In this document: piece after piece, positions 52,301 through 55,300 of the stretch
Layout: each line of letters opens with the position of its first letter
How positions within the stretch are numbered: the stretch's first letter is position 1
From: Cristatella mucedo
Taxonomy: Eukaryota; Bryozoa; Phylactolaemata; Cristatellidae
Assembly (NCBI GenBank): GCA_009760855.2
Contig: WPIO01000004.1
Location: 14,167,501 to 14,231,500, forward strand
Direction of reading: 5' to 3'
DNA length: 64,000 nt
Notes under the pieces: model-generated
The model's database searches: none
Seen by the model: the letters and a program-made list of their open reading frames with translations, nothing else
Told to the model about the DNA's origin: nothing
Translations under genes and position numbers: made by a program

Positions 52301-55300
52301 CCTAACCATAATATTCATCTTGTTTGTTTTTCAAGCATGATTTTACTTACCATTCAATTGCATTTCCCTTTGCAGCAAATGTAAAGCGCCTAGAAAGAGA
52401 TTAAGTTCCCCGGGGGCGCTTTATCAAGTGCATTATTATTATTATTATTATTGTTCAGCCAGGACTACGTGTTCGTGACCGGGTGGACGGCATCTCGGGG
52501 GTGGGACCATTTAAGTTGCTATCTCGCCCAGGCTTCGTGTGCCGGTCAGCTGAATCACTACCGTGGTCAAGCTGCCATGAATTAACCTCACTGAGAGGAA
52601 ACAATGTTTGAAAATATGGCTCGCCATTTGTTTTATTTATTTTTATTTAATAATGCAAATGAGTGTGATGCTTAAGGACATGCAATGCACCGACAGTGCT
52701 TAGGCGCGTTTGTCCTTGTGTATGGTTGTTGAATTTTAAAGTAGATTTAGATTATAGAGGGACCCACGTTTGATTAGCTACACTATTTAATGAATAATGA
52801 AGGCTGGTATTTACTAGTGTCACAGTACTTCGGTGTCCGGTTTTCACAGTTCGACATCGTTGCCTAGGACAAGTGCCGAGGACGCAATGGTCCTTGTCTA
52901 CCGCTCACCAGCCCATTCAAATGCTTGGCAGCAGATGGAGGAGGAAGGGCTGGTATAGCTTGTGCAGCTGTGACAGAGCATGTCATGTAAGACGACAGTG
53001 TAGCGGGCACTGGCTGCCGGATGTGCCTAGAACTGTTAGAGCCGCAAGAGGTTTCATCAGCGAGAGGTTTCATATAAAGAGAGGTTTCAGATAAAGAGGT
53101 TTCATATAAAGAGAGGTTTCATATAAAGAGCCTAGAAACAGATATCAAGCTCTCCAAGGGGGCACAGTGCAATCGCTTTACTATTAATATTAGTGCTAGG
53201 CCCGCTGAGCAGTGCTGTGTAGCCTACTGTTTGCTGCTGAGCTGCTTCGAGGCGGCTCCACTGGCTCCTCAGGCTCGGACTGTGGCGCTGATCAGACCAG
53301 TCAGCGATGGTCGCTCTCTGTTCAGACGTTCGGGCAGACTTATCTGTCCCCGAGTGCTTTCTTGCAAGCCTCGGGACGGTTAGCTGGCATGATACGTTAG
53401 GCGCTCACGATGTGCTCGCGACGATTGCTAGCCGATGCTAGGTGAGAGTCGCTACTCGCCCCTTGCAGGCTAAGCAGATCCTTCGAACCTCGATCAAGCC
53501 GGACAAGAATCAGGCAGACCGATGGGCCGCCGTGCAATGTCTGGGCTTCTATGGCGAAAACGACTCCGAGGTAATAGGAGAGGTAATCGAAGAAATGATG
53601 CGAACCCAAGACATGATGAAGCACGAAAAGGCTGCCTCTCTTCTGGCACACATAAGCTTGTCGACGGTAAGCATTTCGGCATCTGGGTGGGTAATCGTGG
53701 ACTCCAGTCCGTTCAACCCAATTGCTAAGGTCAAGGCAGAATTTCTTCATGTAGCTTTGTCAAGGCAGCTGCCGTCGAGTTTATCAAATGAGTGATTGGT
53801 CTCATTGAAGGATGTCTCTCTCTCTCTCTCTCTCTCTCTCTCTCTCTCTCTCTCTCTCTCTCTCTCTCTCTCTCTCACCTTCACTGACTCACTCACTCAC
53901 TCTCACTCTCTCTCTCTCTCTCCCTTCCTCCCTCCCTCCCTCCCTTCCTCCCTCCCTCCCTCCCTCCCTCCCTTCCTCCCTTTCTTCCTCCCTTCCTCTC
54001 TCTCTCTCTCTCTCTCGGACTTCTGGGAGCAGCAGACCAAAGCTCTTTTTATGGCCTGACCTGCTCAGTGGTCAGATTTACCCATATTTTGCCAGGTAAC
54101 CCGTCTTTAGTTTTGAATTCCGATCTGTTAATAATTATAATTGTACTCGGGCATTTTGAAAAAGTATTAGACCCCACTACCACTTTGGTCACTTAGCTAC
54201 ATTATAGATCGTCGGTAGCCTGATACTATACGTAGCTCAATGGTGCTATACATACTTGATTATCAATTGACACCAAGCTTGCACCTGCAGTTTCCTCGAT
54301 GGATTTAGCCAGACTAAGAGCTATGATAATGCTTGTAGGGAGATCTTCAATAATAATAATATGTCGACCTGGTTTGATCCAGTGGTTAAGGTGCTCGCCC
54401 CGATCAAGGTCTGGCTGAGGTCGTGGGCTCGAGCCCCGAGGCACATCTGAAGTGTCTGAATAGAGATTAAGTTCTCTTGGGTTGCTATACAAATGAGTTA
54501 TATATTTGTGTATTTATATTAATACATTTGCATGAGCCGTCAGATAACTTAGTCTCTTTCTAGACACTTTACTTATGCTGCAAAGGAAGCATGGTCATAT
54601 CATTAGTGCTAACATGTACAGTGTCTACATTCAAACCATGGTTAGCCACTAAAGGCTCAGTGTGAGCACATGTAAACACACACTAAAAAAATCACAAGTA
54701 CCCAGAAAATGCTGTGAGAAACAGGTGTGTTTTAGCTTCTTCTTAAAAGTCGTCAAGTCATGGGATGTTGTGACATCAGGCGGGAGTGTGTTCCAGGCTT
54801 TGGGAGCATACGAACTAAGGGCACGATCTCCAAAGGATTTGAGGTTGGCTATAGGTGCTCATAAACGATTTGAGTCAGGAGAGCATGTGTTATGATGCCT
54901 TGTCTGATTGGGGAGTAGTTCTGATAAGTAGGCTGAAGCCAGACAATGAAGGGACCTAGAAGTGATTTACAAAACCTTGAAATCGGTACGTTGCTTGATT
55001 GAGAGCCAGTTCAGGTCGGCGAAAAGTTGTCTGATGTGGCAACTGGAGTGTTCACAACAGACAAGCTTAGATGCCGAGTTTTGCCCCAAAAGTAAGCACT
55101 TTATTGCACAGACCTGAATACGTGCAAACAGTGAGTTACACAAGTTGAGATAGGATGTTGCAAATGCATGGACTAAGTTGGATCTAATATCCCTTTCTAA
55201 GCAGGCCCGAATCTTTGCAATGTTACATGGCTTAAAGTCGGCAGACTTGAGTGTGGAGCCGATGTGGTCATCTAGGAAAAGGTCACTTTGGAATGGGACA

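Follow-up and report, generated by a model that had tools for sequence, protein, structure and literature searches.

Introduction

Several pairs of retrotransposons with a common 3' end have been described. In the eel, the tRNA-derived short interspersed nuclear element (SINE) UnaSINE1 and the L2-clade long interspersed nuclear element (LINE) UnaL2 carry the same 3' stem-loop, which contains an internal loop and is succeeded by a short repeat, and the UnaSINE1 tail can be recognised by the reverse transcriptase (RT) of UnaL2 (PMC5135761). For the L2-clade LINEs of zebrafish, the region of the second open reading frame (ORF2) between the endonuclease and the RT binds the stem-loop, and a LINE mutant with a broken stem failed to retrotranspose (PMC4176376). 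Bivalve V-domain SINEs share the 3' ends of CR1 LINEs, and stem-loops are predicted for them (Matetovici et al. 2016, as cited in PMC5135761), whilst a table in Ohshima 2013 pairs SINEs of fish, sea urchin, amphioxus and sea anemone with CR1/L2-type LINEs (PMC3747384); the available part of that article's text does not contain the words mollus-, squid, octopus, cephalopod or snail. Here we describe a SINE family, SINE2, that shares its tail with a set of LINE lineages, LINE-A, in the bryozoan Cristatella mucedo. The starting point was a 64-kb stretch of its 572-Mb genome (contig WPIO01000004.1, positions 14,167,501 to 14,231,500; the window), which is rich in the remains of non-long terminal repeat (non-LTR) retrotransposons.

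The mechanism by which a LINE and a SINE share a tail is itself long known, and we regard SINE2/LINE-A as a new pair of the known stringent, shared-tail type. As in the eel pair, the common 3' stem-loop has an internal loop and precedes a short repeat. UnaL2 has a GGAUA loop and a (TGTAA)n repeat (PMC5135761, as far as its available text goes), whereas SINE2/LINE-A has a UUAAGU loop, an AGAGA/UCUCU inner stem, a 6-bp outer stem and an (ATT)n or AT-rich repeat; the two are set apart by these loop and repeat features rather than by alignment. LINE-A resembles the stringent zebrafish LINEs ZfL2-1 and ZfL2-2 in being an RT-bearing LINE with a 3' stem-loop (PMC4176376), and by analogy its enzyme may bind that structure. 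The bivalve V-SINEs, compared here by their published description, offer an invertebrate parallel in their SINE/LINE 3' ends held in common and predicted stem-loops; unlike them, SINE2 is about 145 nucleotides (nt) long and consists of a head and a LINE tail, with scant room for a central domain. The tail strings were not found in literature text, with supplements and Repbase outside the scope of the search, so that absence from print is unproven, and the available parts of two papers on mollusc transposable elements (PMC10294476, PMC11203168) held no such tail that we could recognise. SINE2/LINE-A thus adds an abundant and clean pair to a long-established class.

Results and Discussion

SINE2 is a dispersed family that ends in a LINE-A tail

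The core observation, that SINE2 shares its tail with LINE-A lineages, holds in the window and across the genome. Within the window, the 16-nt inner hairpin of the SINE2 copy at 54363 (the reference copy; Table 1) had 17 matches at up to three mismatches, against a mean of 0.84 and a maximum of 4 in shuffled sequence, and an iterated profile of the tail, about 61 nt long, found 26 copies at E<2e-5. In the genome, the exact 16-nt hairpin occurs 27,242 times (13,527 forward and 13,715 reverse), whilst the reversed-pattern control gave 0.

A genome search with the whole element, in which the best 40 of 3338 first-look candidates were scored, returned 42 matches: the reference copy itself, 40 others with 90-94% identity over 134-146 nt, and one more spanning 56 nt. 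Alignment of 30 loci, the reference copy included, gave a consensus of about 145 nt, made up of a head of about 78 nt and the tail, with a 3' end reading GAAGCGCCTGAATAGAGATTAAGTTCTCTTGGGG(C/T)GCTATACAAATGAATTATAT before unrelated flanks. SINE2 is therefore a short dispersed family, with divergent copies on many contigs and flanks that are unrelated past the element. Since a whole-element query would select for the tail, the 78-nt head alone was also used as query, giving 40 matches (best 40 scored of 1221 candidates), from which 30 loci were cut out. Of these loci, 29/30 (reference copy included) contained the hairpin as well as the GTGCTATACAAATGA block, at up to three edits each, and the remaining locus (L035) had the hairpin. 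The sequence-only reading, an earlier interpretation of the window from its letters, had proposed that SINE2 ends in the LINE-A tail, a proposal that the 29 loci bear out; absence of the hairpin from most SINE2 tails was to count against it, and the hairpin was found in 30/30. The head-selected loci are the best-scoring copies, therefore older SINE2 copies are under-represented, and some are identical to loci from the whole-element search.

The same reading had listed four SINE2 copies in the window. Those at 54363 and 28843 stand and that at 41890 (-) has a weak head, whereas the supposed copy at 45731 (-) has the tail and no SINE2 head; it is the 3' end of a LINE, LINE-A3, because RT fragments (47355-46262, -) sit upstream. 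We had first accepted it as SINE2 and dropped it on these two grounds. The list was also incomplete, having overlooked the copy at 4002-4115 (+).

The LINE-A lineages carry a reverse transcriptase upstream of the tail

LINE-A tails of the window were sorted by eye into three subtypes: A1 (34772, 52373, 23387 and 16626), A2 (56568, 4415, 24667, 28684 and 30614) and A3 (45802-, and probably also 49699, 8681 and 3754). A non-LTR RT lies upstream of part of the LINE-A tails. RT or C-terminal ORF fragments were found on the same strand within 700 nt upstream of 9/26 window tails, though not of the A1 tail at 34772..34834, which has no RT fragment within that distance. A genome search with positions 34705-34835 gave 36 matches, and 30 loci were cut out (L061-L090); in 11/30 of them a C-terminal ORF match begins more than 200 nt upstream and either stops no more than 30 nt short of the tail match or enters it. 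A 600-aa open frame in another genome copy (L091) matched RVT_1 (3.3e-32) and the structures of LINE-1 ORF2p and R2; relatives of this RT numbered 143,249 first-look candidates, of which the best 150 were scored. We presume from its motifs that the LINE-A RT may be L2-like.

The first 40 hairpin places listed, all on contig C1 and all requiring the exact inner hairpin, comprised 11 with a SINE2 head, 24 with a LINE-A1 3' untranslated region (3'UTR) and 5 with neither. By eye, these 5 resemble LINE copies truncated immediately 5' of the hairpin, a pattern that elements copied from the 3' end would leave; two of them (L117 and L126) still class as A1 in a looser alignment. Five LINE-A1 3'UTR ends on one contig (L094, L097, L119, L128 and L129) are near-identical, which suggests a recently active A1 subfamily.

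The common tail is predicted to fold into a two-part stem-loop

The tail is built of a 6-bp outer stem, an internal loop, a 5-bp inner stem (AGAGA/UCUCU) and a UUAAGU loop, followed by UAUACAAA and a short AT-rich repeat; the block after the stem in SINE2 and LINE-A tails is GCUAUACAAA, from which A1 has drifted. The four consensus tails are each predicted to form this two-part structure, with z-scores relative to shuffled sequence of -5.1 for SINE2 (-19.0 kcal/mol), -4.2 for A1, -5.5 for A3 and -3.3 for A2. The fold that the sequence-only reading had drawn for the copy at 34735, with AGCGCC/GGCGCT and AGAGA/TCTCT as outer and inner stems, was confirmed (z -6.5). Two of the six single window copies that were folded did no better than shuffles: the reference copy, whose outer stem has decayed to GTGTC/GGTTGC (63-nt fold, z 0.28, matched by 109/200 shuffles), and the A2 tail at 24667 (z -0.22).

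Table 1. Positions of the SINE2, LINE-A, SINE1 and LINE-B features in the window.
Feature	Position	Strand	Details
SINE2 reference copy	54363..54510	+	Head ~54363-54440, tail 54440-54502; from letters, head and whole-element searches and genome matches
16-mer AGAGATTAAGTTCTCT, inner hairpin AGAGA-TTAAGT-TCTCT	54462-54477	+	In reference copy
Block GCTATACAA, 3' of stem	54484..54492	+	In reference copy
Tail hairpin	54451..54486	+	In reference copy; outer arms 54451-54456 and 54480-54486, decayed
Inner stem and loop	54462-54466/54473-54477	+	In reference copy; loop 54467-54472
A-box-like stretch, weak	54375..54386	+	SINE2 head; read from letters
B-box-like stretch GGCTCGAGCCC	54426..54436	+	SINE2 head; aligns with SINE1 B box
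SINE2 copy, decayed tail	28846..28964	+	Head E 5.6e-9; 3 mismatches in inner hairpin; right outer arm unrecognisable
SINE2 copy, old	41906..42015	-	Inner hairpin exact; outer arms unpaired; head weak, E 0.009
SINE2 copy, old and decayed	4002..4115	+	Whole element E 1.2e-9; head alone E 0.11
LINE-A1 tail	34772..34834	+	Outer AGCGCC 34784-34789/GGCGCT 34814-34819; inner 34795-34799/34806-34810, then (ATT)n
LINE-A1 copy	22725..23469	+	RT C-terminal fragments, then tail 23387-23448
LINE-A2 copy	23576..24727	+	RT fragment 23576-24520, tail 24667-24727
LINE-A2 tail	56568..56628	+	Outer U-G and G-U pairs; the 56470 example of the sequence-only reading
LINE-A3 copy	45759..47355	-	RT fragments 47355-46262, tail 45802-45759
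LINE-A3 copy, probable second	7414..8731	+	RT fragments 7414-8266, tail from 8681
LINE-A copy	54521..55940	-	Tail 54580-54521, preceded by RT and C-terminal fragments 55940-54581; immediately downstream of SINE2 reference copy
SINE1 copies	7262, 21272, 45955, 10106-		
SINE1 tails	7350-7380(+), 21363-21393(+), 46042-46072(+), 10112-10142(-)		
LINE-B copies	17463, 26408, 28501, 17146-		
LINE-B tails	17494-17524(+), 26438-26468(+), 28531-28561(+), 17152-17182(-)		

Proposed mobilisation of SINE2 by LINE-A

SINE2 is very probably a non-autonomous retrotransposon, with a probably tRNA-derived head on the tail of a LINE-A lineage, that would be mobilised in trans by the LINE-A RT via the hairpin. 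Its head, with a B-box-like stretch, would be transcribed by RNA polymerase III, and would have been joined straight onto the terminal ~55 nt of a LINE-A lineage. The LINE-A RT may recognise the hairpin of its own RNA in a stringent manner, and recognition of the same hairpin on SINE2 RNA in trans would then lead to mobilisation, with target-primed reverse transcription beginning in the AT-rich 3' repeat and copying from the 3' end. The common tail, its abundance across the genome, the RT fragments upstream of some LINE tails and the predicted consensus folds are observed, whilst dependence of SINE2 on the LINE RT is a plausible inference.

Some results weigh against this proposal, and they concern the source of the RT frame, the traces of insertion, the fit and age of the nearest LINE, the covariation of the stems and the tRNA searches; they are given in this and the next section with the alternatives on which they bear. 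The L091 copy that supplied the RT frame has lost its own hairpin, therefore the link between RT and tail rests on the window tails and the 30 tail loci. Target-site duplications at 30 SINE2 loci were not clearly over control (mean score 5.23 vs 4.95); scores of at least 8 were reached by 3/30 loci vs 1.7% of mismatched pairs, and scores of at least 9 by 0/30 vs 0.9%.

LINE-A had been put forward as the source of the SINE2 tail with the A1-type copy at 34735 as its model. The LINE-A lineages remain the match, whilst the nearest consensus is A3 and not A1. The A3 3'UTR of the 45731 (-) copy had 25 genome matches, including itself, of which 12 were fetched, and the resulting consensus tail includes AGCACCTGAATAGAGATTAAGTTCTCTTAGGGTGCTATACAAA. 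Over its 45-nt core, the SINE2 consensus differs from A3 at 3 of 43 nt in a gapless alignment (score 37), vs scores of 32 for A2 and 30 for A1, both with gaps. Two of the three differences amount to one exchanged pair, G-C in SINE2 vs A-U in A3. SINE2 also has an internal loop and 3' flank of the A3 type (CCTGAAT...TATACAAA) and not of the A1 type. Its tail was most likely derived from an A3-type LINE. Single window copies ranked differently against SINE2, at 36 for A2 (56568), 34 for A3 (45802) and 33 for A1 (34772), and single genome copies of A1 scored up to 36.

The A3 lineage is older than the SINE that it fits best. Mean divergence from consensus was 13.8% for A3 (13 copies), 7.8% for SINE2 (11) and 6.5% for A1 (26), in samples that are small and differently chosen, the SINE2 and A1 ones requiring an exact hairpin and 3/40 sampled loci that fitted neither having been excluded. 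Nor was a young A3 helper seen: a pattern for the intact A3 tail had 203 hits, and 8/8 of those fetched were SINE2 by eye. It is quite conceivable, if somewhat doubtful, that SINE2 took its tail from A3 and that, once A3 had died out, its subsequent copies came from the younger A1 or A2 enzymes, which read the same inner hairpin and loop. The age order and the 0/8 intact A3 tails speak for such a change of helper, as does the identity of the inner stem and loop in all four consensus tails (SINE2, A1, A2 and A3); it sits less well with the A3-type internal loop and flank that SINE2 retains, and the age order itself depends on the unlike samples just described.

Another history would be that a single template switch onto a LINE-A 3' end gave SINE2 its tail, which the enzyme ignores, any RT that uses an AT-rich 3' repeat being sufficient. 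The 3' repeats of SINE2 and LINE-A are indeed both AT-rich, and covariation in the stems is weak. The sequence-only reading had cited the copy near 56470 as one in which U-G and G-U replace two outer pairs and keep the pairing. The changes (GTGCC/GGTGC) are present, but the outer stem GCGCC/GGCGC has one CpG in each arm and both changes fall on these CpGs. Deamination suffices to explain them, and the example needs no selection because top-strand C-to-T change makes U-G out of C-G and G-U out of G-C; it was accordingly rejected as covariation. Compensated CpG pairs showed no clear excess among 30 SINE2 copies, with 2 CA/TG and 0 TG/CA beside the uncompensated forms CA/CG (3), CG/CA (1) and CA/CA (1).

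Absence of covariation above chance was also to count against the sequence-only reading, and the signal that bears on it is weak. Of the 26 window tails, 24 were used (all but those at 6939 and 53121); 78.5% of their cells pair, and shuffles reached the covariation score in 54/500 cases and the count of changes on both sides in 18/500. A larger set of 95 tails (24 window, 30 SINE2, 29 A1 and 12 A3), in which the reference copy occurs twice and for which the statistics ignore kinship, gave a score reached by 3/1000 shuffles and a percentage paired of 87.2 vs 85.7, reached by 0/1000. When divided by position, the score was reached by 9/1000 shuffles at the two CpG pairs and by 60/1000 at the other nine. 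Covariation is thus marginal in the window and modest on 95 tails, and it sits on the CpG pairs. The exchange between A-U in A3 and G-C in SINE2 and A1, together with the A2 tail at 24667, where a TG/CA change puts U-A in place of C-G, is better evidence than the U-G and G-U pairs, yet it involves the same CpGs.

We nonetheless consider inheritance of an ignored tail unlikely. Four lineages keep one architecture and their predicted folds beat shuffles, A3 differs from SINE2 and A1 by an exchanged pair, and the 5/40 hairpins at which LINE copies seem, by eye, to be cut just upstream are expected if copying starts there.

Origin of the SINE2 head

The sequence-only reading had given SINE2 a tRNA head with A and B boxes. 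Support for this is indirect: the B box of the consensus head was equalled by 29/2000 shuffles, whereas the A box is at shuffle level (817/2000), and the head is akin to that of SINE1, another SINE of the window. No tRNA was found by Rfam in SINE2 copies, even with E allowed up to 1 across 10 loci, or by ARAGORN in the SINE2 window copies, 29 loci or the consensus. Such results would be expected of a head taken from some RNA other than tRNA, or from the 5' sequence of a LINE, an origin that we find improbable. Compared with a tRNA-Ser gene from this genome (L018:3020-3102, which lies outside the SINE2 copy), the consensus head had a score reached by 59/2000 shuffles, and its scores against the four SINE1 copies were reached by 3, 12, 8 and 1 of 2000. 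SINE1 itself has an exact B box in 2/4 copies, and its profile matched the SINE2 reference copy at E 0.0011. A tRNA origin of the SINE2 head is likely, with indirect support.

The GCTATACAA block that had been assigned to the tail is found there in the reference copy, but it is not exclusive to SINE2 and LINE-A, since in the window it also terminates SINE1, LINE-B and another repeat. Taken alone, at one mismatch, it occurs only about twice as often as by chance (39 in the window vs a mean of 16.8), whilst the genome count of the 16-mer against its reversed control and the 26 window profile hits leave practically no room for the tail repeats being chance or simple-repeat artefacts.

A second candidate pair, SINE1/LINE-B

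The tails of SINE1 and of a further LINE, LINE-B, both end in AGCCGNNNAGGCT-N7-CGCTATACAAA. This pattern, written from these same copies and used with no chance control, was found at 8 window places with up to two mismatches, 4 per family (Table 1), and RT fragments (25232-26147) lie upstream of the LINE-B copy at 26438. Homology of the two tails is not established because the LINE-B profile reaches the SINE1 tail in the window only at E 0.37. The sequences suggest SINE1/LINE-B as a second candidate pair; its inner hairpin differs from that of SINE2/LINE-A, and the SINE1 head is akin to that of SINE2. One SINE1 copy (45955-46078) sits inside the LINE-A3 copy 47355-45759(-) in opposite orientation, and a 33-nt stretch of its head is repeated exactly in tandem (45923-45988).

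As a more speculative extension, which we hold to be doubtful, the genome may have at least two distinct SINE/LINE hairpin 'addresses' that share one architecture, with general recognition left to the outer stem plus the 3' block and specificity conferred by the inner hairpin, SINE2 having outlived A3 and passed to A1 or A2. If so, the SINE2/LINE-A address would be the inner stem AGAGA/UCUCU and that of SINE1/LINE-B would be AGCC/GGCU, both followed after the stem by GCUAUACAAA (drifted in A1), and one head would have been coupled to two LINE addresses, given related SINE heads and unlike tails. The graded differences between LINE tails, a SINE that fits an older LINE and a second candidate pair may together be of comparative use in finding which part of the hairpin sets specificity, and the same material raises the question of whether SINEs change helpers or tails.

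Other features

A further repeat, at 46228 (+) and 3507 (-), ends in ...CCACTTGG(G/A)TGCTATACAAA and is perhaps a third tail type. One locus (L009:121-207) contains a long hairpin with matches to miRNA families below gathering scores. Elsewhere in the window, a 61-nt unit is exactly duplicated in tandem at 49119-49242, and an exon that resembles host-gene sequence and matches HEAT repeats (PF02985, 8.7e-07) lies at 58481-58987.

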